From Gemmatimonadota bacterium (lineage in GTDB: Bacteria; Gemmatimonadota; Gemmatimonadetes; Gemmatimonadales; GWC2-71-9), in the NCBI GenBank assembly GCA_009692115.1, contig SHZU01000005.1:1-64000 (forward strand): a stretch of 64,000 nucleotides of DNA. The letters are read 5' to 3'. This document shows, piece by piece, positions 1 through 18,152 of the stretch. The translations under genes were made by a program, and so were the position numbers. Below the pieces are notes generated by a model. It searched no databases, had not been told where the DNA came from, and saw nothing but the letters and a program-made list of their open reading frames with translations. How positions within the stretch are numbered: the stretch's first letter is position 1; every line of letters starts with the position of its first letter.

Positions 1-30
1 GTCATGGCAGAGGGGAGAGGGATCGGTACG

Positions 31-1269
31 GTGACCAGCTACCTGCTCAGGAATGCCGCCGTCTTCGACGGCAGCAGTCCGAACCTGACCGAGGACGACG
101 TCGTGATCGAGAACGGCCGGATCGTCGATATCGCTCCCCGGCTGTCCGCGGCCACTGCCACGCAGATCGATCTGGCTGGGCAGACCCTGATGCCCGGCAT
201 TATCGACGCCCACGTGCATGTGTATGCCTCGGAGCTGAATCTGACCAGCAACATGCGCCGGCCATGGACCTACCTGGCGCAGTATGCTCATGGCTTTCTG
301 GGTCACATGCTCAGCTACGGTGTGACATCCATCCGTGACGTTGGCGGTGGCGACTACGGGCTGGCGCAGGCGCTGGCCAACGGCCTGGTCACGGGGCCAC
401 GATTGTTCTACGGCGGCCGGCTGCTCTCGACCACCGGAGGGCATGCCGATTGGCGTCCCGGCCAGGAGGATGACCACGATCACCTGCTCTGTAACTGTGG
501 TGCCATCGACCAGAAGCTGGCCGTGCTGGCCGATGGCCCGGACGCGGTGCTCCGCGCGGTGCGCGACGAGCTGCGGCGCGGCGCCGACCATATCAAGATC
601 GTAGCCTCCGGGGGCGTCGCCTCGCCGAACGACCCCGTCGACAACCTGCAGTTCACCGACGATGAGATCCGCACGATCTGCGACGAGGTGACCCGCCACG
701 GCCGGTACGTCGCCGCGCACTGTCACCCGGCTGCCGCCATCGAACGGAGTGTCCGTCTGGGCGTTCGCACCATCGAGCACGGCACGCTGATCGACGACGC
801 CACCGCGCGTTACGTGGCCGAGCAGGGGGCCTATCTGGTGCCGACCATGGCGGTGATCTACGCGTTCCATGAAGATGGCGCCAAGTACGGTCTGCCAGCG
901 GCGAGCGTGCGAAAGGTCGGCGAGGTGATCGGTCACGCGCAAAGCGGCATGGAGCGGATGAAGAAGGCCGGCTGCAAGATCGGATTTGGTACTGACCTGC
1001 TCGGTCCCCAGCACACCCGTCACGGCACCGAGTTCGGCTTGCGGAGGGACGTCTTCACGCCGCTGGAGATTCTCCGGCAGGCAACCTCCACGAACGCCGA
1101 GATTCTCAATCGTAGCGGCGAGATCGGCTGCATCCGGGTCGGCGCACGGGCCGACCTGATCGCCGTCCGCGGCAATCCGCTGGACGACATCGAACTGCTT
1201 GCCGCGCAGGGTCGACATCTTTCGCTGATCATGTGCGACGGCGCGGTGTACAAGGACGAGAACCGATGA
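31..1269 (+). CDS. Metal-dependent amidohydrolase (imidazolonepropionase/prolidase-like)
   Basis: A protein of about 412 aa in the amidohydrolase superfamily, predicted to hydrolyse an amide or cyclic amide with a binuclear metal site. Visible motifs are DAHVH after the first beta strand, KIVASGG (candidate bridging lysine), AAHCHP, IEHGT, and the late metal aspartate in FGTDLLG. The C-terminal ARADLIAVRGNPLDD is the usual composite-domain end. The GTG at 31 is chosen because a purine-rich GAGAGGGA lies just upstream; an in-frame ATG at 4 is the alternative. No signal peptide is visible, so it is probably cytoplasmic, unlike the other amidohydrolases here. Its stop overlaps the next gene by ATGA, so the two are probably co-translated. 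Substrate unknown. Confidence 0.85.
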   Translation: MTSYLLRNAAVFDGSSPNLTEDDVVIENGRIVDIAPRLSAATATQIDLAGQTLMPGIIDAHVHVYASELNLTSNMRRPWTYLAQYAHGFLGHMLSYGVTSIRDVGGGDYGLAQALANGLVTGPRLFYGGRLLSTTGGHADWRPGQEDDHDHLLCNCGAIDQKLAVLADGPDAVLRAVRDELRRGADHIKIVASGGVASPNDPVDNLQFTDDEIRTICDEVTRHGRYVAAHCHPAAAIERSVRLGVRTIEHGTLIDDATARYVAEQGAYLVPTMAVIYAFHEDGAKYGLPAASVRKVGEVIGHAQSGMERMKKAGCKIGFGTDLLGPQHTRHGTEFGLRRDVFTPLEILRQATSTNAEILNRSGEIGCIRVGARADLIAVRGNPLDDIELLAAQGRHLSLIMCDGAVYKDENR

Positions 1270-3929: not shown

Positions 3930-4590
3930 GTTCCCGGAGCATGGCGGGGCGCGCGTCGGGTGCGCCGGACAGGTGGGGCGCGTTCAGCGCCCGGAAGTGG
4001 CTCTCGACGACCAGCAAAGTTTTCCAGAGCAGCGCCGTGGCGTTCTCGACGTACTTGAAGCGCTGGGCGGCCGACGGGCGGAGCCGGACCGCGGCGAACG
4101 GCGATGCGATCACGTTAGTGGTGCGCAGATGGGGCCAGTGCTCGGCGGGGAAGGCGTAGTCCGCCGTCATCCGCGTCCAATGCCGCTCGAGTCGGCCCGC
4201 GCGATCGTCTGGAGCGCGGCCTTGACCTCGGGCTGGTGCTTCTTGGGCACCGCGTCGGGGGCATTCCGGAGCTTGGGATTCCAGCAGCGCTGCTCCGCGC
4301 CCTCGGGGTAGACGGTGGCCATCGGCGATCGTGAGCTTCGGCGCCGAGAGACCACGCCGCTTCAGGTCGCGGAGGACAGCGGCCCAGCTCTCCGTCGATT
4401 CCCGCTGCCCGCTGGTGACGGCCAGGACGTGCTTCTGCCCATCGGCATCGGTGCCGATCAGCACGAAGAGCGCGGCCTTGCTGGTGTCGAGCCCGGCTTT
4501 CACATACACCCCGTCGGCCCAGAGGTAGACGAGGCGGCAGTCGGTGAGACCGCGATGATCTTCTGGTCTGACATGTGACGCTTCCTCCAA
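3930..4590 (-). mobile_element. IS256/Mutator-family transposase remnant
   Basis: The minus strand encodes the middle and end of an IS256-type transposase in pieces. YLWADGVYVKAGLDTSKAAL and the following RESTESWAAVLRDLKRRGL run in one frame down to about 4314. The conserved EQRCWNPKLRN block continues in another frame (about 4313-4190). FPAEHWPHLRTTN and the following RLRPSAAQRFKYVENATALL then return to the first frame. The part after TIADGH that normally links to the EQRCW block is shortened, and the segment between QTIARAD and the FPAEHW block is largely missing. The N-terminal third is absent. It cannot make a working transposase, and no terminal inverted repeats were identified. Confidence 0.8.
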
Positions 4591-4630
4591 CGCGACAGGG
4601 CAACTGCACCACGGGCCGCCGTTTGATTAT

Positions 4631-4924
4631 TCAGGGATCCGTGCCCAGTTCTGCAATGATGGCCTCGAGTAGCCGGGTCACGTCAGGATCGCGGTCGATC
4701 AGCCGGGAGGCGATGTCGCTGCCTGCCAGCCGGGCTGGATGGGAGCCCCGGAGAATCCGGAGGACGTTGTACTGGCTGGCGGTCAGACTGCTGGTGCTCT
4801 TGAGGACCTTGACCCATGGTTCGTTGAGACGGGCGGCGACCGTGAGCAAGCCGAGCAAGGCTTCCTGCTCGGGCAACGCAAACGGCTTGGCCCGCTTCAG
4901 AACCTCGGCGATCGTTCTTGTCAT
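4631..4924 (-). pseudogene. MarR-family regulator, C-terminally truncated
   Basis: The 97-aa reading frame matches the N-terminal two thirds of a MarR repressor: helix 1, then LTASQYNVLRILRGSHPARLAGSDIASRLIDRDPDVTRLL, which is the start of the winged helix. Soon after TRLL the sequence becomes unrelated residues and a stop. The wing and the C-terminal dimerisation helix, about 50 residues, are missing. The break lies beside the IS256 remnant, so an insertion or deletion there probably removed the end. A well-formed palindromic operator remains just upstream, between this gene and the exported-hydrolase operon, so the intact gene probably controlled itself and that operon. Confidence 0.75.
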
Positions 4925-4932
4925 GCCGAGAT

Positions 4933-4952
4933 ATGGTCGTTATAACGACTAT
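4933..4952. promoter_or_regulatory. Palindromic operator, probable MarR-type site
   Basis: GTCGTTATAACGAC at 4936-4949 is a perfect 14-bp palindrome. It extends to 20 bp with one mismatched pair (4935/4950). It lies 8 bases upstream of the truncated marR start and about 110 bases before the divergent hydrolase operon at 5063, the usual place for an autoregulatory MarR operator. The role is inferred from position and symmetry. Confidence 0.6.
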
Positions 4953-5062
4953 CGTCAGGAGGTTGGTATTGGGCTTCGGCGGCGTGGCGGCGCCAGCCGG
5001 TCCGCTCTAGATTCTTCCCTGGCGGTATTCGCGCCACCACCGTTCCGCCCTCGGAGATCCGC

Positions 5063-8000
5063 ATGAACCACCGATCCGCCCTCGCCGGTGCCTTGGCCGC
5101 TGTCCTGCTCGTCGGCAACCTCGCCGCCCAAGACAAAGCCACCTGGGACGTCACCCAACCCCGCGGCAAAACCAGGACAATCGCCTTCACCACCACCGAG
5201 GGCACCTGGATGTCGGTCGACCAAAGCCCCAATGGCCAGTGGCTGGCGTTCGACTTGCTCGGCCACATCTACTGGATGGCGGCCACCGGCGGACCGGCCA
5301 CGGCCTTGACCCAAGGCACCGGCATCGCCATCAACACCCACCCGCGGATCTCCCCGGACGGGAAGCTGATTGCCTTCGTCTCGGATCGAAAAGGCCAGAA
5401 CAATCTCTGGGTCATGAACGCCGACGGCACCGAACCCCGAGCGGTCTTCACTGACAATGCGGTCCGGGTGTCGATGCCGGCGTGGACCCCCGACGGCCAG
5501 TACATCGTGGTGGTCCGCCAAGGGCTGCCCACCGGCGGGCAACCCGGCAGCGGCGGACTCTGGATGTATCACAAGGACGGCGGCACCGGCGTCGAGTTGC
5601 TGGCCAGTTCCCGGCAACCCGGCGCAACGTGGCCCAGCGTCTCCCGCGACGGACGGTACCTCTACTATCAAGCCTCCGCCGGTTCGTGGCAGGCTGGGTA
5701 TGGCGGCCGGCCGGACTTCCTCGGCGGCTCGGCCCAGGTCCGGCGGCTCGACCTCAAGACCGGCGAGATCATCCCGATCTCCTTCGGGGAGCAGTCGCAA
5801 CAGGTCCAGACCTCGAGCGGCGGGATGGCTGCGCCCGAGGTCTCACCCGACGGCACGTGGCTGGCGTTCGTCCGGCGGATTCCGGACGGGACGATTTCCT
5901 GGAAGGGGCACACCTTCGGCCCCCGCTCGGCGCTCTGGCTCCGGAACTTGGAAACCGGCGCCGAGCGATTGGCCATGGACCCGGTGGAACAAGACATGGT
6001 CGAGGGCGGGAAGGTGCTCCGGCCGTTCCCGGGCTACTCGTGGAGCGCCGACGGGCGGACGATCGTCGTCACTCAGGGCGGCCAGATTCGGCGGCTCGAC
6101 GTGGCCTCGGGTACCGTCTCCACCATTCCCTTCACCGCCAAGGTTGATCGGACGATTTCGGAGTTGGCCAACACCCAGAGCCGGATTACCGACGATCCGT
6201 TTCCAGTCCGTTTTACACGGTGGCAAACGGCCTCGCCCGACGGGAAGAAACTGGCGTTCCAGGCGGTCGGCCGGATCTGGCTGATGGACCGGCCCGGCGG
6301 GACCCCGCGCCGGCTGACCGGGGCCGGGTTCGAGCCGTTTGAATACGCCCCGGCCTGGTCGCCGGACGGACAATGGATCGCGTTTACCAGTTGGACCGAC
6401 TCGATCGGCGGCCACCTTTACCGAATCCGAGCCAGCGGCGGCACCCCCGAGGCGCTGACCCGCCAGCCAGCCGAGTACATCAACCCGGCCTGGAGTCAGG
6501 ACGGCGCCGAGTTGGTCGTGGCGCGCGGTGCGGGCGAAAGCCGGCGGGGCCGCGGCGTGGTGTGGAACGCCTATTGGGACTTGGTCCGAGTGCCGGCGGC
6601 CGGCGGAGCGACCAACTTCGTGGCCCGGGTCAATTCCTCGCTCGACGGCAATGCCGGGAGCGCGTTCAACAATATCCGGAGTCAGATTGTCCGGGCCTCC
6701 TATGGCCCGGAGGGACGGATCTTCTATCCCCAACTGGCCGCCACCGCCACCGGCCTCGAGTCGACCCTGTTCTCGATCCGGCCGGACGGCCTCGACCGCC
6801 GGGCCCATTTCACCTTCCCCTACGCCGACGAAGTGGTTGCCTCGCCGGATGGGAAGTGGATCGCGTTCCAGGAATCAGACAACGTCTATGTGACGCCGTT
6901 TCCGTATGCGGGGAGCGGAAGCGCGCCGGTCCGGATCGACCGGGCCCGGGCCAAGCTCCCGACCACGAAACTCAGCAAGGAAGGCGGGCTCTTCCCACGG
7001 TGGCGGGACAACAGCACGGTGGAGTTCGGGAGCGCGAGTCGCTACTTCACCTACGGCGTCGACACCAAGCGGGCCGACACCACCGAGATCAAACTGGTCG
7101 TCCCGCGCGACATTCCGGCTGGCACGGCGGCGTTCACCAACGCCCGGATCATCACTCTGGCCAAGCGGCAGGTCGTCACCGGTACCGTGGTGGTGCGCGG
7201 TGGCCGGATCAGCTGCGTGGGCCGCTGCCCGGTGCCGGCCGGCGCCAGGGTCTTCAACGCGGGCGGGAAGACCATCGTTCCCGGCTTCATCGACGTGCAT
7301 TCCCACAACTACCGCGAGCACCGGGGAATCATTCCGCAGAAGAATTACGAGGGGGCCATCTTCCTGGCCTACGGCATCACCACGACGATGGATCCGTCGA
7401 TGTGGTCCGAGAACCTCTTCCCCACCGCCGAGATGGTCGATGCCGGGACCATCATCGGGTCGCGGGTGTTCAGCACCGGCGATCCGCTCTACGCCGGCGA
7501 CGGGTCACGCCAAGAGGATTTCACGTCGTATGAGGTGGCCGAGGCGGGCATCAAGAAACTGGCGAGCTGGGGCGCGGTGTCGCTCAAGCAGTATCTCCAA
7601 CCCCGGCGCGAACAGCGCCAGTGGGTCACCGAGGTGGCCCGGAAAGTCGGCCTCCAAGTTACATCCGAGAACGACAACCTCGAGTACACGTTAGGCATGA
7701 TCATGGACGGGCATACCGGGTTCGAACACCCGATGAGCTACACCCCGCTCTATGGCGACTTCACCACCTTCCTTGGGAAGGCCCAAGCCACCTACTCGCC
7801 GACCTTCATGGTGGGCGGCCCGGGCCCCTGGAACGAGGAGTACTGGTATCAAGAGTCCGAAGTCTGGAAAGATCAGAAGACCCGCCGGTTCATCCCGTGG
7901 ATGCAGTTCATTCCGCAGACCCGGGAACGGATGATGCGGCCGGCCACCGACTACAGCTTCCCGTGGATTGCTCAAGGCTTGGCCGATATCATCGCGGCCG

Positions 8001-8374
8001 GCGGCTTCGGCACCATCGGCGCTCACGGCCAACACAACGGACTCGGCTCCCACTGGGAAACCTGGATGGCCGCCTCGGCGCTCGGACCGATGGGAGCCTT
8101 GGAGGTGGCAAGCCTCCACGGGGCCCGATTCATCGGCAAGGAGCAGGATCTCGGCTCGATCGAAGTCGGCAAGTTGGCCGACTTCATGGTGCTGAACACG
8201 AATCCGCTGGACAACATCCGGAACACCGCCGACATCATGTATGTGGTCAAGGGTGGCGTCGTGTACGATGACGAGACCCTGAACGAGGTCTGGCCCCGGC
8301 AGAAATCGTACGGCACCGGGCATTGGCTGATTCCCGATGCCCTGAAACAGGACGACAAGCCGATCCGGCCATGA
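5063..8374 (+). CDS. Exported TolB-like propeller/amidohydrolase fusion
   Basis: A 1103-aa protein with an N-terminal signal peptide (cleavage near LVGNLAAQD). Residues about 40-650 contain repeated PD40/TolB-type blades with motifs such as SPDGKLIAFVSDRKG, TPDGQYIVV and SPDGQWIAFTS. Residues about 690-1085 form an amidohydrolase domain: VPGFIDVHSH places the HxH pair at 746/748, and the late region has GAHGQ..GLGSHWETW where other subfamilies have a metal aspartate, which is typical of this fusion family. Periplasmic peptide or amide hydrolysis is the likely role, with the propeller gating access. A GGAG site precedes the ATG. It is the first gene of a three-gene coupled operon and overlaps the next by ATGA. 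Confidence 0.88.
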   Translation: MNHRSALAGALAAVLLVGNLAAQDKATWDVTQPRGKTRTIAFTTTEGTWMSVDQSPNGQWLAFDLLGHIYWMAATGGPATALTQGTGIAINTHPRISPDGKLIAFVSDRKGQNNLWVMNADGTEPRAVFTDNAVRVSMPAWTPDGQYIVVVRQGLPTGGQPGSGGLWMYHKDGGTGVELLASSRQPGATWPSVSRDGRYLYYQASAGSWQAGYGGRPDFLGGSAQVRRLDLKTGEIIPISFGEQSQQVQTSSGGMAAPEVSPDGTWLAFVRRIPDGTISWKGHTFGPRSALWLRNLETGAERLAMDPVEQDMVEGGKVLRPFPGYSWSADGRTIVVTQGGQIRRLDVASGTVSTIPFTAKVDRTISELANTQSRITDDPFPVRFTRWQTASPDGKKLAFQAVGRIWLMDRPGGTPRRLTGAGFEPFEYAPAWSPDGQWIAFTSWTDSIGGHLYRIRASGGTPEALTRQPAEYINPAWSQDGAELVVARGAGESRRGRGVVWNAYWDLVRVPAAGGATNFVARVNSSLDGNAGSAFNNIRSQIVRASYGPEGRIFYPQLAATATGLESTLFSIRPDGLDRRAHFTFPYADEVVASPDGKWIAFQESDNVYVTPFPYAGSGSAPVRIDRARAKLPTTKLSKEGGLFPRWRDNSTVEFGSASRYFTYGVDTKRADTTEIKLVVPRDIPAGTAAFTNARIITLAKRQVVTGTVVVRGGRISCVGRCPVPAGARVFNAGGKTIVPGFIDVHSHNYREHRGIIPQKNYEGAIFLAYGITTTMDPSMWSENLFPTAEMVDAGTIIGSRVFSTGDPLYAGDGSRQEDFTSYEVAEAGIKKLASWGAVSLKQYLQPRREQRQWVTEVARKVGLQVTSENDNLEYTLGMIMDGHTGFEHPMSYTPLYGDFTTFLGKAQATYSPTFMVGGPGPWNEEYWYQESEVWKDQKTRRFIPWMQFIPQTRERMMRPATDYSFPWIAQGLADIIAAGGFGTIGAHGQHNGLGSHWETWMAASALGPMGALEVASLHGARFIGKEQDLGSIEVGKLADFMVLNTNPLDNIRNTADIMYVVKGGVVYDDETLNEVWPRQKSYGTGHWLIPDALKQDDKPIRP

Positions 8375-10425
8375 ACCCGACTACGCTGGTGGCCACCGCC
8401 GGCCTGGCGCTCGCGCTGTCCGGAAGCGAGGGCCGGGCCCAAGCCCGTCCGGAGATCATTCGGACCGAGCACGGGGTTCCCCATATCTACGCCGCCGATT
8501 TTCGGCAGGCCGGCTATGGTCTCGCTTGGGTCGAACTGGAAGACTACGGAGTCCGGGTCGTCAACGCCGTGATCAGCGGTCGGGGTGAGATGGGCCTCGT
8601 CTACGGCCCCGACAGCCTCGCACAGGATTTCGCCCGCCGGCCAATTCACGCGCTCGCCAAGCTGGTGTGGCCGCGATTGGAACTTCCCACCCGCCAGATG
8701 TACCAGGGGTTTGCGGAGGCCATCAACGATTACGTGACCCGGCACCCCACTGAGTTCGCCCCGCAAATCGAGCCGGTGTTTCAAGGCTGGGACGTTCTGG
8801 CCCGCGAAATAGCCGCTCCCGACATCAGCGGAGCCCGGCGGCTGCTCAACCGGAAGACCAATCCACCCGCCACTCGCAATGACGACGAAGGGTCCAACGC
8901 CTGGGCCTTCGCGCCTTCACGCACTGCCTCGGGCCGAGCCATCCTGCTCCGGAACCCACACCTGTCCTGGGACGCCGGCTACTACGAAGCCCACCTCGTC
9001 ATTCCCGGCCAGCTCGACTTCTACGGCGATTTCCGAATCGGGGGAGCCTTCGCGGTGGTGGGCGGGTTCAACCGCGATTTGGGATGGGCCACCACCAACA
9101 ACGCGGTGGACAATGACGAACTCTACGCCGTGCCGTTGGCCCGGGGGCGGCAAGACCGGATCATTGTCGACGGGCGACCGGTACCGCTGACCAAGACCCT
9201 GGTTGCGGCCGGGAGCGAGACCCGGGAGGTCTGGTCTTCGCCGTTCGGACCGGTCATCGGCCGGAAAGACGGCACGGCTTACATCCTGAAAACCGCCAGC
9301 GCGGGCGAGTGGCGGGGCGGCGAGCAGTTTTTGAAGATGATGCGGGCCACCTCGTTGGCCGAATGGCAAGCGGCCATGAAGATCCGGGCCCGGACCACGT
9401 CCAACCTGACCTACGCCGACCGGGCCGGGAACATTTTCTATGTCTGGAACGGGGCGCTGCCCGCGTTGCCTCACCCGCCCGGGGGCGACTCGCTCATCGT
9501 ACCGGCTCGGACCCGCCGCGGAATGTTCTCGCGCCTGGTGCCCTGGGATTCGATGCCGATGGTCACCAACCCGGCCACGGGCTACCTCCACAACGAAAAC
9601 GACTCGCCGCACTTCGCCAATCTCGAAGCACCGCTCGATCCGGCCCGGTTTCCGCCCAACGTCGAGCGGCCGAGTCTCCGGTTGCGAAGCCAGCACGCGC
9701 TCGACATGATTCGATATCCCGAGGACAAATTCTCGCTCGAGGATGTGATTCGAACCAAGCACAGCTATCGGATGCTGCTGGCCGAACGGATGCTTCCCGA
9801 GTTGCTCCGCGCGGCGGAGTCGGCCGTGCCGGCTCCTCCGGCCGATGCGGTGGCGGTCCTGGCGGCCTGGGACCGGTCGGTGGCGCCGCAGTCGCGCGGG
9901 GGCGTCCTGTTCGAGAGCTGGTGGCGCCACTACACCGCCCGAGTCAAGCAGCCGTTTGCCGTGGAGTGGTCGATTACCGAGCCGATCAGCACCCCGCGGG
10001 GATTGGCCAATCCGAGTGAGGCGGTGGCCGCGCTCACAGTGGCCGCGGATTCGGTGCTGAGGCGGTATGGCCGGATCGACGTAGCCTGGGGTGAGGCCCA
10101 TCGCATCCGGCTCGGCGGGCGGGACATTCCGGTCGGTGGCTGCTCGGGCGACTTGGGCTGTTTTCGAGTCCTCTCGTTCCGAGACGAGCCCGACGGGAAA
10201 CGATCCGCCCAAGGCGGCGACGGTTGGATCTTGGTGGTCGAGTTCGGCGACGTGCCGCGCGCGTTTTCGGTCCTGGCCTACGGCCAGTCCAATCGGGTCG
10301 ACTCTCCATTGTATGCCGATCAGGCCGAGCGGTTTGCGCTCGGTGACTTGAAACCGGTAGCGTTTACCCGCGCCGACGTGGAACGAACTGCCGTGAAGCG
10401 CTACCGCGCAGGAGAAACCAAATGA
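8371..10425 (+). CDS. Penicillin/AHL-acylase family Ntn hydrolase
   Basis: A protein of about 684 aa, starting at the ATG that overlaps the preceding stop. Residues 1-25 form a signal peptide (GLALALSGSEGRAQA). The early IIRTEHGVPHIYAADF is the conserved alpha-subunit opening. The autoprocessing junction is visible as EGSNAWA, making Ser175 the probable N-terminal nucleophile of the beta chain. GGFNRDLGWATTNNAVDNDELY and NLTYADRAGNIFYVWNG are further family blocks. Members deacylate beta-lactams, N-acyl-homoserine lactones or other N-acyl amides in the periplasm. Sequence alone does not show which. Its neighbours, two exported amidohydrolases, suggest stepwise breakdown of an N-acylated peptide-like compound. 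Confidence 0.9.
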   Translation: MNPTTLVATAGLALALSGSEGRAQARPEIIRTEHGVPHIYAADFRQAGYGLAWVELEDYGVRVVNAVISGRGEMGLVYGPDSLAQDFARRPIHALAKLVWPRLELPTRQMYQGFAEAINDYVTRHPTEFAPQIEPVFQGWDVLAREIAAPDISGARRLLNRKTNPPATRNDDEGSNAWAFAPSRTASGRAILLRNPHLSWDAGYYEAHLVIPGQLDFYGDFRIGGAFAVVGGFNRDLGWATTNNAVDNDELYAVPLARGRQDRIIVDGRPVPLTKTLVAAGSETREVWSSPFGPVIGRKDGTAYILKTASAGEWRGGEQFLKMMRATSLAEWQAAMKIRARTTSNLTYADRAGNIFYVWNGALPALPHPPGGDSLIVPARTRRGMFSRLVPWDSMPMVTNPATGYLHNENDSPHFANLEAPLDPARFPPNVERPSLRLRSQHALDMIRYPEDKFSLEDVIRTKHSYRMLLAERMLPELLRAAESAVPAPPADAVAVLAAWDRSVAPQSRGGVLFESWWRHYTARVKQPFAVEWSITEPISTPRGLANPSEAVAALTVAADSVLRRYGRIDVAWGEAHRIRLGGRDIPVGGCSGDLGCFRVLSFRDEPDGKRSAQGGDGWILVVEFGDVPRAFSVLAYGQSNRVDSPLYADQAERFALGDLKPVAFTRADVERTAVKRYRAGETK

Positions 10426-12071
10426 CCTACCATCGTCGCGATTTCGTTGCCTCCTTGGCCGCCGTTCCGTTCGGCGTACTCAAGTGGCAACAGCCGGCCA
10501 CGATTCTCGTCAACGGCAACATCGTCACCATGGACCCGGCGCGGCCGCGAGCCACGGCGCTCGCGATTTTGGGTGACCGGATCCTGGCGGTGGGCAGCAA
10601 CGAGGAGATCCGGCGGCTGGCGGGGCCGCTCACCAAACGGATCGACCTCGCCCGGAAGACCGTGGTGCCGGGGTTCATCGACGCCCATTCTCACCCGGCG
10701 GACTCGGGTCTCCAACATTTGGTCCGGATTGACTGCGACTTGCGTTCGATTGCCGCGATCCAAGCCGCAGTCCGGGAACGTGCCGCCAAAACTCCGGCCG
10801 GCGAGTGGGTGCTTGGCTTCAAGTACGACGACACCAAGACCGTCGAGGGCCGCCCGTTATCGCGGGCGGACCTCGACCTCGCGGCCCCCAATCATCCGGT
10901 GTTCATCCAGCATCGCGGTGGCCACACGGCCTACTGCAACTCGATCGCGTTCGACCGAGCGGGGGTCACCGCGTCGACCCAGGACCCGGCCGGTGGCATG
11001 ATCGATCGAGACGCCTCGGCCGCGCCGAGCGGGCGGTTGGCGGAAACCGCGGTCAATCTGGTCAGCCGGATCGTGCCGGTCAAGGAGACCCCGGCCGACC
11101 GGCAGACGGGCGTCAAGATCATCTCAAAGATGTTGGCGAAGGCCGGCATTACCTCGGTTCACGACGCGAGTGCGTCGATCGCCGATTGGCGAGCCTACCA
11201 AGACGCCCGGGCCGCCGGCGATCTCGGCACCCGGGTCTACGGGCTCATCTATTCGAGTGAAATCGACAAGATCATTGCCGCCGGCCTCCGGCAGGGCGCG
11301 GGCGACGAATGGGTCCGGCTCGGCGGCATGAAAGCGGTGTGCGACGGCTCGATCTCGGAGCGGACCGCCCGGATGTCCGAGCCCTACACCGGGCGGCCGA
11401 GCGACTTCGGCATCCTGGTCAGCCAGCCCGAGGAACTTTGGCCGCTGCTCGAAAAGGCCCACCGCGCCAATCTTCAAATCGGGGTTCATAGCAACGGCGA
11501 TGTCGCCATCGACATGGTGCTCGGCCTCTATGAACGACTCCAACGAGAGTATCCGAGGAAAGACCCCCGGTTCCGGCTCGAGCACTGTACCCTGATCAAC
11601 GAGGATTTGGTCCGCCGGATCAAGGCCATCGGCGCGATCCCAACCCCGTTCTCGACCTACGTCTATTGGCATGGCGAGAAGATGAAGGAGTACGGGGCGG
11701 CCCGGCTCGACCGAATGTTTGCGCTCCGGAGTTTTCTCGACGCCGGGATTCGCCCTACTTTTGCCTCGGACTACCCGCCCGGGCCGTTCGAACCGATGAT
11801 GGGGCTGCAGTCGATGGTGACTCGCACCGACATGAAAGGCACGGTCTGGGGCGCCCGTCAGAAGATTACCGTCGACGAGGCCATCCGAGTGGCGACGGTG
11901 CACGGCGCCTACGCCTCGTACGAAGAACACCTCAAGGGCTCACTCGAAAGCGGCAAGCTGGCCGACCTGGTCGTGTTGGGCCGCGATCCGTATCGGGAAC
12001 CACCGAGTTCGCTGGTGACGATTCCAATCGAGCGAACGATGGTCGGGGGGCGCTGGGTGTACGAGTCCTGA
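10422..12071 (+). CDS. YtcJ-like amidohydrolase with Tat-type signal
   Basis: A 549-aa amidohydrolase of the YtcJ/NfdA type. The N-terminus YHRRDFVASLAAVPFG carries a twin-arginine-like motif followed by a hydrophobic stretch, suggesting export of a folded, metal-loaded enzyme. Metal-site motifs are DAHSH (Asp87-His91), HRGGHTAYCNS, IGVHSNGD, RLEHCTL and the late FASDYPPGP. It ends with SGKLADLVVLGRDPY. It starts at an ATGA overlap with the acylase, completing a translationally coupled three-gene operon. Family members act on amides such as N-substituted formamides; the natural substrate is not known here. Confidence 0.87.
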   Translation: MTYHRRDFVASLAAVPFGVLKWQQPATILVNGNIVTMDPARPRATALAILGDRILAVGSNEEIRRLAGPLTKRIDLARKTVVPGFIDAHSHPADSGLQHLVRIDCDLRSIAAIQAAVRERAAKTPAGEWVLGFKYDDTKTVEGRPLSRADLDLAAPNHPVFIQHRGGHTAYCNSIAFDRAGVTASTQDPAGGMIDRDASAAPSGRLAETAVNLVSRIVPVKETPADRQTGVKIISKMLAKAGITSVHDASASIADWRAYQDARAAGDLGTRVYGLIYSSEIDKIIAAGLRQGAGDEWVRLGGMKAVCDGSISERTARMSEPYTGRPSDFGILVSQPEELWPLLEKAHRANLQIGVHSNGDVAIDMVLGLYERLQREYPRKDPRFRLEHCTLINEDLVRRIKAIGAIPTPFSTYVYWHGEKMKEYGAARLDRMFALRSFLDAGIRPTFASDYPPGPFEPMMGLQSMVTRTDMKGTVWGARQKITVDEAIRVATVHGAYASYEEHLKGSLESGKLADLVVLGRDPYREPPSSLVTIPIERTMVGGRWVYES

Positions 12072-12154
12072 AAGTTCACGTCGTGACCCCGGTTCGCCAC
12101 ATCTCGCACGCTCGAAACCACCCTCGCCGGCGAGGCTCTGCCCGGGCGATGGCG

Positions 12155-13510
12155 CTATTCCTCGCGCCTGGGCCTGTTGTTTCGAGCCATCTTCGTCGAT
12201 GCCCTCGAGGCCGACGCCGCGCGGCTGGAGCGGCGGACCTGAGGGTCCAACGCTTCGGTGTCTACGACAACCCGGCCGCCCTTCATGACCCAGCGAACCC
12301 GCCGAGTAATGGCCGTGATGTCGGCAAGCGGATTCCCCTCGACCGCGACGATATCGGCATAGTAACCAGGCGCGAGTCGGCCTAACGTGCTGTCCTGACC
12401 CACCAGCACCGCCCCCGTGGTGGTGGCGGTGGCCAGGGCTTCGGCGGGGCTAAGCCCGGCTTTCACAAACCACTCCAGCTCCAGGGTGTTTTCGCCAAAT
12501 CCGGTGAATACCGCATCCGAGCCCATGGCCAGTCGGACGCCCGCCTGGTGGGCCCGCCGCGCGGTCTCGAGGTTCCGCACCACGAACGCCCGCAAGTCGG
12601 CGGCGTTCTGCTCGGAGTATCCATACTCGGCCCGGTGGTCGGCATAATATCGGTTGTGGTCGATTGTGGGGACGTAAATGGTTCCGCGCCGGGCCATCTC
12701 GGCCAGGGACTCGTTGTCGAGATCGACCGCATGTTCGATCGACTTCGCCCCCGCCCTGACCGCGTCCTTCGCGGCCTCGGGACCGTAGGAGTGCACGGTC
12801 ACCCGTTTGCCTCGACCGTGGGCCGAGTCGACCGCCGCCTTGAACTCGTCGTAGGTGAAGGTTGGCGTGCCGGACAGATCGTCGGCACTGCCGGTCGACC
12901 CGAAGATCTTGATCAGGTCGGCGCCCTGGTCAATCTGACCGATGACCCCAGCCGCGACGGCCGCCGCGCCGTGGCCGACCGCGCCGCAAAAGGTCCCGTC
13001 CGGTTTCTTCACCAGTCCACAACCCGCCACGAACATCCGCGGGCCGACCACCCGGCCGTCGTTGATCAGGTCGCGGAGGTAGATGCTGGTCTTGTCGGGG
13101 GCGTAGAGATCGCGAACCGTGGTCACCCCGGTTTCGAGGGTCCGCCGGAGGTTCTCCTGGGCCAGGACCAACAAGGTGGGCGCCGGGCGTTTATCGAGCT
13201 GGTCCCAGGGCTTGGTCCCGGGTTTTCGGTCCCACCAATAGGTGATATGGACATGGGCATCGATTAGACCGGGAACCGCCGTCCACCGATGGAGATCGGT
13301 CACCGGAATACCCCGGAGCCCGGCCGAACCAGCGGGCACCACCCGCTCGATCCGGTCGCCGGCGACGACGACCACGCCATTCTCGATGACCGGGCCGGAA
13401 CCGGTCACAACTTTCCCGAACCGATAAGCCCGGGTTTGACTCTGAACCGGGGTAGCGGAGAACCCCAGGAGAACGCCGAGCCCGAGGACCCACTGACGAA
13501 GGATATGCAT
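12155..13510 (-). CDS. Secreted amidohydrolase
   Basis: A protein of about 451 aa starting at MHILRQWVLGLGVLLGFSA, a clear signal peptide ending near VQSQT. An upstream in-frame ATG at 13543 would precede the signal and is less likely. Motifs are GLIDAHVH, GADLIKIFGSTGSA (metal-site lysine), VTVHSYGPEA, SIEHAVDLD and AMGSDAVFTGFGENTLELEW. PGYYADIVAVEGNPL closes the domain. A basic serine/arginine-rich tail of about 25 residues follows the last strand. It is convergent with the hydrolase operon at 5063-12071, and its exported location suggests related catabolism. Confidence 0.85.
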   Translation of the reverse strand: MHILRQWVLGLGVLLGFSATPVQSQTRAYRFGKVVTGSGPVIENGVVVVAGDRIERVVPAGSAGLRGIPVTDLHRWTAVPGLIDAHVHITYWWDRKPGTKPWDQLDKRPAPTLLVLAQENLRRTLETGVTTVRDLYAPDKTSIYLRDLINDGRVVGPRMFVAGCGLVKKPDGTFCGAVGHGAAAVAAGVIGQIDQGADLIKIFGSTGSADDLSGTPTFTYDEFKAAVDSAHGRGKRVTVHSYGPEAAKDAVRAGAKSIEHAVDLDNESLAEMARRGTIYVPTIDHNRYYADHRAEYGYSEQNAADLRAFVVRNLETARRAHQAGVRLAMGSDAVFTGFGENTLELEWFVKAGLSPAEALATATTTGAVLVGQDSTLGRLAPGYYADIVAVEGNPLADITAITRRVRWVMKGGRVVVDTEALDPQVRRSSRAASASRASTKMARNNRPRREE

Positions 13511-13570
13511 CGGGAAAAGGTATCGCCCTCGGTTCCGGAGCAATAGATTGGAGCAACCGGAGGCGTCGCG

Positions 13571-13855
13571 GTGTCACGAGCATTTACCAAAGAAGACAGC
13601 GATGGCCCGCCCCCGAGATATCCACTGCCACCCTCGGACGATCCCGGCTTTCCGCTCGCCGCCGCCCGGGCCCTCTTGGCCGGCGCCAACCAAGGCGACA
13701 CCGCCAGCGCCGAGGAGGCCACCGGTCACCTGTGGGGCGACAGCCGGTTGGTGGCACCGATGCGGTTGATTCTCGGCGAGGCCGTCGAACGGGGCGACGA
13801 TCGGCTGGAAGTGCTGACCGAGCGATTTCTCAAAGCGGCCGGCGGATCTCAATAG
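13571..13855 (+). CDS. Small conserved-looking hypothetical protein
   Basis: A 94-aa protein with a GTG start. It is rich in Pro/Asp at the N-terminus (YPLPPSDDPGFP), followed by an Ala-rich helical segment AAARALLAGANQGDTASAEEATGHLWGD and a second helix. No transmembrane segment or catalytic motif is visible. It lies 12 bases before the GMC oxidoreductase in the same direction, and a TAGATTG -10-like element sits 20 bases before its start, so it is probably the first gene of that transcript. The function is not recognised. Confidence 0.55.
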   Translation: MSRAFTKEDSDGPPPRYPLPPSDDPGFPLAAARALLAGANQGDTASAEEATGHLWGDSRLVAPMRLILGEAVERGDDRLEVLTERFLKAAGGSQ

Positions 13856-13867
13856 GAGGCAACGTCA

Positions 13868-15640
13868 TTGAAACAGCAGCAGTATGACGCCATTGTGGTC
13901 GGCTCCGGCGCGGGCGGCGGTATGGCCGCGTTTCAACTCGCCGTCAACGGCCTCAAGGTCCTTCTGCTCGAAGCGGGCCGGAACTACGATCCGGTCCGCG
14001 AGACACCGATGTTCCAATTGCCCAAGGACGCTCCGCTCCGGGGCGACGGCACCGCCGACAAACCGTTCGGTTTCTATGACGCGACGGTCGACGGTGGCTG
14101 GCGGGTACCCGGTGAGCCCTACACGGTGGCGCCCGGGTCCGATTTCATGTGGTGGCGAACTCGGATGCTCGGCGGGCGGACCAATCACTGGGGCCGGATT
14201 GCGCCCCGGATGGGGCCCTATGATTTCAAACCCCGCTCGCGCGACGGGTTAGGCATCGATTGGCCGCTGACCTATGACGAGCTGGAGCCCTACTACGACA
14301 AGACCGAAGCGTTGATCGGGGTCTACGCCCACGACCAGAGCCTGGAGAACACGCCGGTATCCAGGAACGGCAGCCAGATGGCGCCCCCGAAGCCCCGGGC
14401 CTTTGACCTCTTGACCAAGAAGACCTGCGGGCCGCTCGGGATTCCGGTCATTCCGGCGCCGATTGCGGTCCTGACCCAAAAGCAGGACGCCGATCGGTGG
14501 CCGGCCAAGCTCTTTCCGGGGAACCCGCTCGCGCAGCGGGTGGTCCGGGATGCGATGCGAGCCCGGCAGGCCTGTTTCTACGCCACCGGCTGCGGCCGCG
14601 GCTGCTCGATCAAGGCCAATTTTCAGTCAACGACGGTTCTGATTCCGCCGGCAATGGCCACCAACAACCTGACCATCATCGCCAACGCCATGGTCCGGGA
14701 GGTCACGGTCGACGGGCGGGGCCGGGCCACCGGGGTCAACTATATCGACAAGACCACCCGCACCGATCAGCACGCCCGGGCTCGAATCGTGGTGCTGGCC
14801 GCGAGCGCCTGCGAAACCGCCCGGATCATGCTCAACTCGAAATCCCCGCTGTTTCCGGACGGCATCGCCAATGGCACCGGGCTGGTCGGCAAAGGGTTGA
14901 TGGACACGGTCGGGGCCGGGATCGGAGGGCAGATCCCCGCGCTCGAGCATCTCCCGCCCCACAACAACGAAGGCACCAGCCGGCTCCACATGTACACGCC
15001 CTGGTGGCTCTACCAGGAGCAGGCGGCCGGCAAACTCGACTTTGCCCGCGGCTATCACGTCGAGTTCGGCGGCGGCCGCGACATGCCCGACGCCGGAATT
15101 TTCTGGGGTCTCGAGAACTACACCAACGGCGCCTACGGCAAGCGGTTCAAAGAGGAAGCTCGGCGGTACTACGGCTCCTTCGTGTATTTCGACGGCCGCG
15201 GGGAGATGATCCCGAACGACGACTCCTACTGCGAACTCGACCCGACGGTGGTGGACCAATGGGGCATTCCGGTGCTCCGGTTCCACTGGAAGTGGAGTGC
15301 TCACGAGACCAACCAGGCCGCCCATATGGTCAAGACCTTTGCTCAGATCATCGAGGGCATGGGGGGGAAAGTGGGCGGCAAGGTCGAGACCGACGGGTCG
15401 AAGGTGATCGCCAAGGGGGGCCAGATCATCCATGAGGTCGGCACCGTGCGGATGGGCGACGACGCCCGGACCTCGGTGCTGAACGCCCACTGCCAGTCGT
15501 GGGACGTCAAGAACTTGTTCGTGACCGATGGCGCACCGTTCGTGTCCAACGCCGACAAAAATCCGACGATCTCGATTCTGGCCCTGGCCTGGCGGACCAC
15601 CGATCACATCTTGGCGGAAATGAAACGGGGGGCCATCTGA
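13868..15640 (+). CDS. GMC-family FAD-dependent oxidoreductase
   Basis: A 590-aa protein with a TTG start preceded by a perfect AGGAGG site seven bases away. YDAIVVGSGAGGGMAAFQLA is the dinucleotide-binding fold for FAD, and LLLEAGRNYDP the adjacent strand. RMLGGRTNHWGR is the GMC signature region. The C-terminal HEVGTVRMG and NADKNPTISILALAWRT carry the usual catalytic His/Asn environment. There is no signal peptide of its own. The next gene is a Tat-exported gluconate-2-dehydrogenase subunit-3-like protein, so the pair probably forms a periplasmic sugar or alcohol dehydrogenase in which the large subunit is exported with its partner. The stop overlaps the next start (TGATG). Confidence 0.9.
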   Translation: MKQQQYDAIVVGSGAGGGMAAFQLAVNGLKVLLLEAGRNYDPVRETPMFQLPKDAPLRGDGTADKPFGFYDATVDGGWRVPGEPYTVAPGSDFMWWRTRMLGGRTNHWGRIAPRMGPYDFKPRSRDGLGIDWPLTYDELEPYYDKTEALIGVYAHDQSLENTPVSRNGSQMAPPKPRAFDLLTKKTCGPLGIPVIPAPIAVLTQKQDADRWPAKLFPGNPLAQRVVRDAMRARQACFYATGCGRGCSIKANFQSTTVLIPPAMATNNLTIIANAMVREVTVDGRGRATGVNYIDKTTRTDQHARARIVVLAASACETARIMLNSKSPLFPDGIANGTGLVGKGLMDTVGAGIGGQIPALEHLPPHNNEGTSRLHMYTPWWLYQEQAAGKLDFARGYHVEFGGGRDMPDAGIFWGLENYTNGAYGKRFKEEARRYYGSFVYFDGRGEMIPNDDSYCELDPTVVDQWGIPVLRFHWKWSAHETNQAAHMVKTFAQIIEGMGGKVGGKVETDGSKVIAKGGQIIHEVGTVRMGDDARTSVLNAHCQSWDVKNLFVTDGAPFVSNADKNPTISILALAWRTTDHILAEMKRGAI

Positions 15641-16281
15641 TGGATCGCCGCTTGCTCCTGAAGACGTTAGGCGGATCGGCGGCAGCGTTACCGATCCTGG
15701 CCCAGAGCGCGGGATGCCGGCCGGCCGAGACGCCGTCGGCACCGGTCGAAGGGCCGCCGTGGACCGGGCCGGCCGGCACGCCCTCGGATCCGGACCTGGT
15801 GCAACCCAAAACCCCGTGGGCCAAGGTGATGACGGCCGAGGAACTGACCGTCTTGACGGCCCTCTGCGACACCATCATCCCGGCCGACGAGAAAAGCCCG
15901 GCGGCGAGCCAGGTCGGAGTTCCGGACTTCATCAACGAGTGGGCCAGCGCGCCATATGACTACCAGCGCGGCGGACTGGCGCAGATCCGCGCGGGGCTCC
16001 TCTGGCTCGACGCCGAGGCGGCTCGTCGGTTCCGGAAGGCGTTTGCGGCGTTGACGGAGGTGGAGCGGAACCGGATTTGTGACGACATTTGCTACGAACC
16101 CAAGGCGAAGCCGAGGTTCAAAGTGGCGGCCCGGTTCTTCGATTTGGTCCGAGATCTGGCGGCCACGGGGTTCTACACGACGACCGAAGGGATGAAGGAC
16201 CTCCAGTACATCGGCAACGTCGCACTTCCGAGGTTCGATGGTCCCCCGCCCGAGGTGCTCAAGCACTTGGGGCTCGAATGA
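15640..16281 (+). CDS. Gluconate 2-dehydrogenase subunit 3-like protein (Tat)
   Basis: A 213-aa protein beginning MDRRLLLKTLGGSAAALP, a twin-arginine signal, followed by a low-complexity linker and a helical domain. LTALCDTIIPADEKSPAAS, VGVPDFINEWAS and the C-terminal FFDLVRDLAATGFYTTTEGMKDLQYIGN match the gluconate 2-dehydrogenase subunit 3 family. It starts at the ATG overlapping the GMC oxidoreductase stop, so the two are co-translated. The expected role is to escort and anchor the FAD subunit; no cytochrome c subunit is encoded nearby. Confidence 0.87.
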   Translation: MDRRLLLKTLGGSAAALPILAQSAGCRPAETPSAPVEGPPWTGPAGTPSDPDLVQPKTPWAKVMTAEELTVLTALCDTIIPADEKSPAASQVGVPDFINEWASAPYDYQRGGLAQIRAGLLWLDAEAARRFRKAFAALTEVERNRICDDICYEPKAKPRFKVAARFFDLVRDLAATGFYTTTEGMKDLQYIGNVALPRFDGPPPEVLKHLGLE

Positions 16282-16297
16282 GCCGCGCTTGGCCTTC

Positions 16298-17032
16298 CTA
16301 GGCTCGGCGTTGTTCGTGACGCATGTGCTCGAGCTCGGTCCGCAGGGGCTCCCGGTAGTCACGGGCCGGGCCGCAACGGATCGATAGACTTCAATGGCCT
16401 CGACCTGCTCAGGCGGCAGTAACCGAACGCTGACGCCGAGTCCGTCCTGTGCGGGGTGGAGATAGATCGGGGCGCCGTCGAGGAACACCATCATGCTGAG
16501 GTCGCCCCGCTCGGCGCAGTACGCAATGTCTCCAACGACTCGGAGCCCGGCTCGCCGAAGGACGTTGGCCGAATCGAACTTGCCCCAGGTTTTAATATCC
16601 TCTCGGGTAACCAGCCCCGAGGCCGGGGCCCCATTCAGCATCATCCGCCGCGCCGAAACCGCTGCGATCCCCGTGAGCTTCCGGCCAAACGCCTTCACGA
16701 TGACTTTGGGCAAGACCTGGACCTGCGACCTGAGCACGATTGCGAGTTCCAGGGTGTCGGCAACGCCGAGCGTGAGCGGCACCCGCTGAACTTGGTAACC
16801 GATCGCCCGGACGATCAGCAGGTCAGCGCCGGCCTCGAGCGAGTCGAGCACGAACCACCCCCGGTCATTGGCCCGGTCTTGGCTCTTGCCGTGGAGCACG
16901 ACGGCTTCCGCATCCGCAATCGGGGCGCCACTCGGATCACGAACAACCCCGACGATGAGCGACCGCTGGCCCTGGCCCGGCCGCGAGGAACCCGGCAAGC
17001 ACGGCCAGAACCATCAATCGCGTCTTCTTCAC
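16298..17032 (-). pseudogene. Carboxypeptidase-regulatory/plug-domain protein, frameshifted
   Basis: A GTG start at 17032 overlaps the upstream cutC stop (GTGA) and encodes a signal peptide KKTRLMVLAVLAGFLAAGPG, but this frame stops soon after. The mature domain continues in another frame from about 16990: SLIVGVVRDPSGAPIADAEA is a carboxypeptidase-regulatory-like fold, and AYCAERGDLSMMVFLDGAP through LPPEQVEAIEVYRS is a TonB-plug-like segment. Past VYRS the body frame has no sensible end, while the signal-peptide frame offers RDYREPLRTELEHMR and a TAG at 16298. The 735-base span is a multiple of three, so two compensating indels are possible. The first lies in GGCCGGGCCAGGGCC, a slippage-prone run. 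Assembly error is the main alternative to decay. Confidence 0.6.
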
Positions 17033-17751
17033 CGGCCCAGCGCTTCGATGACTCCACTCAGCCGACCAGGATTCGGCACCGGCGTCATCCCAAACACCCC
17101 GTCCGCCACCCGCTCCAGCCGAATCCCGGACAGGTGGACCTCCCGCACCGAGGTGGCCTCCACCAACCCGACGACCTCCGCCGCCATTACCCCGCCGCCC
17201 GCGATCACCGTTAGGTCGGTCCCCGCCCGCCTGACCAGCCGACCGATCACGCCCCGCCCCTCATAGGCCGAAGCCCCTCCCCCAGCCGTCAGCAGCCGAG
17301 CCACGCCATCCGCCATCAAAACCTCGAGCGCCTCAATCGGTTCCGCCACCGAATCGAACGCCCGATGAAACACCACCGGCACCGGCCCGGCCGCCGCCAC
17401 CAACCGCTTCAATCCCTCCCGGTCAATCCCGCCGCCGGCGTTCAATGGCCCAACCACCACGCCGTTGGCCCCGGCCCGGATCGCATGCCCAATGTCTGCC
17501 GTCATGACCAGCATCTCATCCAGGCCATAAACAAATTCCCCGCCCCGGGGCCGGATCATCACCGCCATTGGGATCGTCACCCGCTCCCGGACCGCCTCGA
17601 TCAACCCCAAGCTCGGCGTCGTCCCGCCCAGCTCGAGATCCTGGCAGAGTTCAAGCCGGTCGGCCCCCAATCCGGCCGCCATGACAGCCGCAGCCACCGA
17701 ATCGACGGCTACCTCGACCAACGGGCGAGTTCGCGTTAGCATTGTCTCCAA
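17029..17751 (-). CDS. cutC: CutC-family protein
   Basis: A 240-aa TIM-barrel protein of the CutC family. Characteristic stretches are LVEVAVDS, GADRLELCQDLELGGTTPSLGL, IPMAVMIRPRGGEFVY, GANGVVVGPLN, VVFHRAFDS and LLTAGGGASAYEGRG. CutC was named for copper homeostasis, but its biochemical role is unsettled. The length and motifs are complete. METM at 17751 and MLTRT at 17742 are both possible starts. It is divergent from the small membrane protein at 17787 and overlaps the frameshifted secreted protein downstream. Confidence 0.9.
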   Translation of the reverse strand: METMLTRTRPLVEVAVDSVAAAVMAAGLGADRLELCQDLELGGTTPSLGLIEAVRERVTIPMAVMIRPRGGEFVYGLDEMLVMTADIGHAIRAGANGVVVGPLNAGGGIDREGLKRLVAAAGPVPVVFHRAFDSVAEPIEALEVLMADGVARLLTAGGGASAYEGRGVIGRLVRRAGTDLTVIAGGGVMAAEVVGLVEATSVREVHLSGIRLERVADGVFGMTPVPNPGRLSGVIEALGR

Positions 17752-17786
17752 GATGCAACCATTCCCCTGGCGGTGAAAGCGGCCCC

Positions 17787-18152
17787 ATGACCGATCCTGT
17801 CCGCACCAACGGCGCCAGCGGCACCCTCGGCGGCTTGGCCCTGGTCGTCGGGGGCGGTTACCTCGTCCTGAGCCAAGTCACCGTCACCACCAATTACTGG
17901 TCCGTCTACGGCTACAACGCCTTCGGATTGTCGCTGATTCCGCTCCTGATCGGCATCGGCATCCTGTTCTTCAGCGGCAAGTCGGCTGCTGGGTGGTTCC
18001 TGGCCCTCGGCGGGATGCTGATCATCTTGGTCGGCGTCATCGCCAACCTCCGGCTTTTCTTCCAGCCAACCAGCCTCTTGAATACCCTGATGATGCTCGG
18101 CGCCCTGGCGGCTGGACTCGGTCTGGTCGCCCGCTCGCTCCGGTCGCAGTAG
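17787..18152 (+). CDS. Small four-helix membrane protein
   Basis: A 121-aa protein with four hydrophobic segments: TLGGLALVVGGGYLVLSQV, LSLIPLLIGIGILFF, GWFLALGGMLIILVGVIA and LMMLGALAAGLGLVARS, linked by short polar turns. The order and spacing indicate an integral inner-membrane protein. No family motif was recognised. It is followed after 9 bases by the DUF433 gene, so the two may be co-transcribed. Confidence 0.65.
   Translation: MTDPVRTNGASGTLGGLALVVGGGYLVLSQVTVTTNYWSVYGYNAFGLSLIPLLIGIGILFFSGKSAAGWFLALGGMLIILVGVIANLRLFFQPTSLLNTLMMLGALAAGLGLVARSLRSQ

Follow-up and report, generated by a model that had tools for sequence, protein, structure and literature searches.

Within a 64,000-nucleotide stretch of a Gemmatimonadota genome (assembly GCA_009692115.1, contig SHZU01000005.1, positions 1 to 64,000; hereafter the window), three consecutive genes encode a propeller-bearing amidohydrolase (propAH), a penicillin-amidase-family N-terminal nucleophile (Ntn) acylase and a YtcJ-like amidohydrolase. 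Our results show that this three-gene unit is a recent, variable, genus-level arrangement, because it is confined to one genus and its content differs among six congeners. The link between propAH and acylase is more than chance, as three operons of the same genome combine the two and one such pair is kept in 11 of 11 genomes. We lean towards placing the operon among several modular, lineage-specific operons whose enzymes degrade amino acids and peptides with N-acyl groups, or similar amides, extracytoplasmically for carbon and nitrogen.

The three plus-strand open reading frames (ORFs; 5063-8374, 8371-10425 and 10422-12071) were confirmed, as were the two ATGA overlaps by which a first-pass annotation had joined them. 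The features are as follows.

5063..8374, plus strand: propAH, 1103 amino acids, a fusion of a TolB-like (PD40) propeller and an amidohydrolase domain, with a presequence for export (Pfam, homologues, alignment)
7298..7306, plus strand: HxH metal motif of propAH (H746, H748), invariant in 11 of 11 aligned sequences
7667..7669, plus strand: codon of propAH E869, aligned with the His that serves as beta-5 metal ligand in ordinary amidohydrolases (alignments)
8371..8374, plus strand: ATGA overlap of propAH and acylase genes (stop and start read from the sequence)
8371..10425, plus strand: S45 penicillin-amidase-family Ntn acylase (precursor), 684 amino acids (Pfam, alignments, model, fold matches)
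8893..8895, plus strand: codon of acylase Ser175, which is predicted to be the nucleophile at the N terminus of the beta subunit (alignments, solved beta chains)
10410..10414, plus strand: AGGAG, Shine-Dalgarno-like, ahead of the third gene (read from the sequence)
10422..10425, plus strand: ATGA overlap of acylase and YtcJ-like genes (stop and start read from the sequence)
10422..12071, plus strand: YtcJ-like amidohydrolase (Amidohydro_3), 549 amino acids, with a twin-arginine presequence (Pfam, structure-database match)

We assessed conservation in a phylum set of 180 genomes and in the six genomes of the genus, which include that of the window (G000, 3.12 Mb); the named relatives are metagenome-assembled genomes of Gemmatimonadetes. 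Matches were present in 64 of the 180 phylum genomes for the acylase (E ≤ 1e-60), in 62 for the third protein (at 1e-100) and in 38 for propAH (at 1e-250). In two of the phylum-wide searches no more than 7 and 4 candidates per genome were scored, and their results were therefore re-tested by tblastn of neighbourhoods. The phylum draw gave 53 acylase loci, five of them in the genus; none of the other 48 has propAH, and a YtcJ-like gene occurs at just one of them (L092), on the other strand and 4.4 kb off. Among 80 named loci, propAH and/or the YtcJ-like gene were found in three, all from congeners. No propAH lies near the acylase at 118 non-genus loci (of 123 distinct loci, within 10 kb of available sequence), and the trio was rejected as a phylum-wide operon on this ground. 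The adjacency of the three genes, which we had been advised to check across Gemmatimonadota and beyond, is thus not kept outside the genus.

Nor is the trio a fixed unit within it. Only G000 and G109 show the bare order propAH-acylase-YtcJ, two of the six congeners. G180 has an S9 gene between acylase and YtcJ-like genes; G041 has the order class A beta-lactamase-like, acylase, S9, YtcJ, with no propAH; G037 has beta-lactamase-like, propAH, about 0.9 kb, then acylase, with no YtcJ on the available flank; and in G167, propAH, CotH and acylase share a contig and S9-YtcJ lies on a different one. Despite these insertions and losses, propAH stands beside or near the acylase in five of the six genomes, the window's included.

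The pairing recurs elsewhere in the same genome. G000 has seven Penicil_amidase genes, three of which lie with propAH; with 10 propAH genes in about 2,622 genes (estimated), the probability that three or more of seven acylases lie within three genes of propAH is 3.8e-4. The two additional operons are the following.

L211 (G000:C10:94000-113000), 4234-15279: operon 2, with propAH2, Amidohydro_1, an AMP-binding acyl-CoA-ligase-type protein and acylase2
L226 (G000:C5:218000-237000), 6981-18128: operon 3, with acylase3, propAH3 (4-bp overlap), a 94-amino-acid ORF, Peptidase_S15, a Beta-lactamase-fold protein and S9

Beside operon 2, on the other strand, are Peptidase_S15 and ECH_1 (enoyl-CoA hydratase) genes. 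The order of this operon is repeated in G109, and parts of it occur in G119, G041 and G037. Acylase3 was found in 11 of the 180 genomes, and in every one of them propAH3 comes next in the same orientation, with a gap of at most about 1.0 kb; these genomes span three genera and two family groups at 49-82% identity, one locus (L258) being cut by its contig.

Outside the genus, the window acylase family keeps other company. Clustering of all ORFs near acylases produced, for the most part, reading-frame shadows of the acylase itself and was replaced by codon-model gene calls with Pfam, which yielded 106 upstream and 102 downstream immediate neighbours; 104 of the 147 far genes found served as a control. 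Upstream, we counted LolA (9), cyclophilin/HEAT (7), Amidohydro_3 (6), Asp/Glu racemase (4) and Beta-lactamase (3); downstream, S41 (8), M28 (7), S9 (5) and M14 (3). Peptide and amide hydrolases are more frequent among the immediate neighbours than in the far control, where each of the families counted here has fewer than two members; the clades behind these tallies are not independent. D-aminoacylase-type genes were found at 12 loci (7 clusters) within 2.5 kb compared with 3 loci (2 clusters) at 2.5-10 kb, over 507 kb and 1004 kb examined, respectively; after dropping the query's own cluster, the comparison is 6 versus 2 clusters (p 0.02). S9 adjacency outside the genus amounts to 6 near versus 4 far loci (p 0.08).

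Several family members are fused to such partners. A single ORF, L166:8474-12145, joins Amidohydro_3 to Penicil_amidase, and both halves match solved enzymes, making it a D-aminoacylase::acylase fusion. A second one (L160:1-2946) is cut at the contig start, and its D-aminoacylase half was detected by tblastn, not by Pfam. We also found an S12 hydrolase::acylase fusion in Parapedobacter composti (L189:8816-12145) and two HEAT-cyclophilin::acylase fusions (L099:7483-11763 and L113:4610-8920). In three Sphingobacterium species, the acylase lies between an Asp/Glu-racemase-family protein and S9, and next comes a beta-lactamase-fold protein in which class C and class A parts are fused; in one of the loci, that of S. 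pedocola (L172), a gamma-glutamyltranspeptidase is upstream. Asp/Glu-racemase-family proteins with lipoprotein-like starts, as judged by eye, stand beside the acylase at L172:8347-9885, L177, L178 and L189:7314-8810; an exported racemase would be unusual.

The overlaps had been taken as a sign of strict co-translation and fixed stoichiometry. Gene overlaps are common in this genome, however: in 20 stretches of 20 kb (400 kb) picked by their position, overlaps join 54 of 212 neighbouring same-strand pairs, and by chance about 6% of gene triples would have two in a row. The nearest intact congener, G109, keeps neither overlap and has gaps of about 30 and 23 nucleotides, as read from the junction sequences, and in G180 an overlap is found at the S9-YtcJ junction instead. 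We therefore rejected the ATGA overlaps as proof of fixed stoichiometry; strict coupling is not conserved.

The acylase belongs to the S45 penicillin-amidase Ntn hydrolases according to its Pfam match, its active-site residues and its fold. PF01804 (Penicil_amidase) scores 346.4 bits against a gathering threshold of 21.3 (E 6.8e-103, residues 28-671). Gly-174, Ser-175, His-197 and Asn-410 are invariant in 43 of 43 aligned sequences, and Gly-174-Ser-175 also in a separate alignment of 20 of 20, which bears out the clear Ser nucleophile noted at first reading. With numbering relative to glutaryl-7-ACA (GL-7-ACA) acylase counted from the alignment, we take Ser-175, His-197 and Asn-410 to be the equivalents of the catalytic Ser-beta1, His-beta23 and Asn-beta244. 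The structural model has a predicted local distance difference test (pLDDT) score of 89.8 and a low-confidence stretch at residues 162-171, ahead of Ser-175, and the beta chains of solved acylases align starting at residue 175. The enzyme would mature by autocleavage before Ser-175 into alpha and beta chains.

The best fold matches of the model are cephalosporin acylases (Z 42.2-47.0), followed by MacQ (5c9i, Z 40.1), D-succinylase (Z 35.8) and PvdQ (Z ~35; 3l94, Z 35.1), so that the fold is shared with the acyl-homoserine lactone (AHL) acylases. Glutaryl-7-ACA acylase 4e57 matches the whole fold (Z 47.0, root mean square deviation 2.9, 638 aligned residues; 31-32% identity) and, like it, the window acylase has the three catalytic equivalents and the low-confidence spacer before the nucleophile. 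Unlike GL-7-ACA acylase, it sits in an operon with two amidohydrolases and has Val-230 at the position of Arg57-beta, the residue that binds the glutaryl carboxylate; no Arg occurs in this column among 20 sequences. It also differs from PvdQ, scoring 202.1 bits against the cut-off of 950 of the PvdQ equivalog (NCBIfam NF051460). Among the matches listed, no NCBIfam name was above cut-off for any of the three proteins.

PropAH combines PD40 repeats with a C-terminal Amidohydro_1/3 domain, so the fused propeller of the annotated propeller-gated amidohydrolase stands, and it may gate access as proposed. The C-terminal domain aligns with solved amidohydrolases of the cog1228 group (Xaa-Pro dipeptidase/prolidase 2qs8 and 3feq, Arg carboxypeptidase 3mtw, phenylurea hydrolase 4whb, and amidohydrolase 9l36/8j85), which carry no such TolB-like propeller in front of the enzyme domain. 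The canonical binuclear site of amidohydrolases consists of HxH, Lys, His, His and Asp. Like the cog1228-type enzymes, propAH keeps HxH (H746, H748), beta-4 K842 and beta-6 H889, in 11 of 11 aligned sequences. Unlike them, it has Glu-869 for the beta-5 His (aligned with 9l36; Glu in 11 of 11) and an HG[QE] motif, subject to a possible alignment shift, at the usual place of the beta-8 Asp (11 of 11), with no clear Asp there. HxH, K842, E869, EH889, HG[QE] and HWE are thus present in all 11 family members aligned. A domain model built from three close sequences had a pLDDT of 34.2 and was not used. G000 has 10 full-length propAH genes and one fragment; at G000:C4:216950-223897 (L234), two propAH genes stand in tandem with a fragmentary third. 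A scan of viral contigs found no propAH relatives.

The third protein matches PF07969 (Amidohydro_3) over its full length (326.3 bits against a gathering threshold of 29.7; E 7.1e-97). It aligns with 3icj over nearly the whole length (1.8e-39); 3icj and 3igh, the solved YtcJ-like proteins, are uncharacterised amidohydrolases. We rejected its identification as a D-aminoacylase, as only residues 28-99 match solved D-aminoacylases (E 1.6e-4).

Export signals had been assigned to all three proteins, and by eye propAH has a clear Sec-type presequence and the YtcJ-like protein a twin-arginine RRDF motif (RR-x-F also in three congeners). The acylase presequence starts without basic residues, and no Shine-Dalgarno sequence stands at the usual distance from the gene's ATG. 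As for the label of amide hydrolases, family membership strongly implies this activity for the acylase, and the two amidohydrolases may share it.

Exported stepwise breakdown of N-acylated compounds is the best and most economical reading of these data, because the propAH-acylase link recurs and the partners are mostly peptide and amide hydrolases; what the substrate is, how the steps are ordered and whether the proteins form a complex are all inferred. The acylase would autocleave before Ser-175 and then split an acyl-amide bond. PropAH would act as a metal-dependent enzyme whose propeller perhaps limits access to small substrates, and together with the third amidohydrolase it could cleave the freed dipeptide, amino-acid amide or second acyl bond. 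The freed acid may be imported and activated, as the acyl-CoA-ligase-type and enoyl-CoA hydratase genes at operon 2 hint, and the amino acid product would be imported as well. Exchange of partner hydrolases among operons could tune them to different substrates. The shared stepwise pathway suggested at the outset thus gains from the recurrent pairing and loses from the lack of conservation of the trio.

Several points weigh against this reading. The function is read from genes, and export of the acylase and of the YtcJ-like protein relies on judgement by eye. Because its metal site is non-canonical, activity of propAH cannot be assumed. Orthologues of the window acylase outside the genus never lie by propAH, which argues that propAH is dispensable for the acylase's basic role. 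Hydrolases are abundant: 20.7% of sampled own-genome genes adjoin a partner-family member. Five of the seven own-genome acylases have such a partner as the next gene (p 0.005), on a wider partner list drawn up after looking. S12-type adjacency, rejected as a general rule, is weak and not significant once query-source loci are dropped (3 near and 3 far clusters, p 0.32).

A possible, though rather unlikely, alternative is that the operon targets D-amino-acid compounds (N-acyl-D-amino acids, peptidoglycan-derived or D-residue lipopeptides, or beta-lactam-like molecules), the acylase deacylating them alongside D-specific partners. The fusion in L166, whose D-aminoacylase-type half has 1m7j/1rjp as best solved relatives, points in this direction, as do the proximity of D-aminoacylase-type genes, the Sphingobacterium loci with their racemase-like and beta-lactamase-fold neighbours and the S. 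pedocola transpeptidase, the S45 D-succinylase among the solved relatives and, in two of the six congeners, a cluster that includes a class A beta-lactamase-like gene. However, the partners in the window are propAH and a YtcJ-like enzyme, with neither a D-aminoacylase nor a beta-lactamase gene; each congener genome has 8-12 D-aminoacylase-type matches, and the queries were partly picked from neighbours.

We would give still less credit to a bolder proposal, in which propAH is a new type of metallo-amidase (HxH, Lys, Glu, His, HG[QE] site) that forms a periplasmic complex with the Ntn acylase. Within such a complex, acylated peptides, which may contain D-residues as lipopeptides or cell-wall fragments do, would first be deacylated and then passed on for hydrolysis. 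A set of interchangeable operons of this kind would make the lineage a specialised eater of peptide natural products.

Chance neighbourhood, in which abundant exported hydrolases were reshuffled within the lineage without sharing a pathway, would fit the restriction of the trio to one genus, its variable content and the abundance of hydrolase genes and overlaps; we regard it as improbable in view of the three propAH-acylase operons (P 3.8e-4), the pair kept in 11 of 11 genomes and the persistence of propAH by the acylase in five congeners. Most doubtful is quorum quenching or antibiotic detoxification, with the acylase cutting AHLs or beta-lactam side chains in the periplasm, as its kinship to cephalosporin acylases, MacQ and PvdQ in fold and sequence is general to the whole family, the PvdQ equivalog score is far under the cut-off, and Val-230 replaces the glutaryl-binding Arg.

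The enzyme kinds are known, and their arrangement is new and testable. The penicillin-eating pathway comprises beta-lactamase, amidase and phenylacetate genes; the class A beta-lactamase-like gene beside acylase or propAH in two of six congeners recalls it, but the window operon has no beta-lactamase gene and no phenylacetate genes were seen. A search of one open-access library, which cannot exclude other print, found no paper on the trio, on the acylase fusions or on the role of propAH, in agreement with the initial remark, whose author knew of no described pathway with this trio. PropAH genes are numerous in this genome. That they are repeatedly paired with an acylase whose mechanism is well understood offers the first concrete route to a substrate, and the fusions of acylase-family members to D-aminoacylase, S12 and cyclophilin partners are additional starting points. 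If true, the proposed breakdown would show how an abundant yet poorly cultivated phylum makes its living from acylated peptides or amides.

Finally, we noted the surroundings of the operon. Directly upstream lies a Mutator-type transposase remnant (PF00872; 3772-4590, minus strand), and beside it a seemingly truncated 97-amino-acid ORF (4631-4924, minus strand) with no Pfam match and what we take to be a MarR-like look. Two more amidohydrolases flank the region (4-1269, plus strand; 12155-13543, minus strand), with Xaa-Pro dipeptidase as nearest NCBIfam, below cut-off. A GMC oxidoreductase gene followed by Gluconate_2-dh3 occupies 13868-16281 (plus strand), and a GMC gene is also close to the YtcJ-like gene in G109, G167 and G180. 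A small conserved protein (about 95 amino acids, no Pfam match) is encoded near the cluster in two congeners, at 13571-13855 (plus strand) of the window and at L058:12744-13034.

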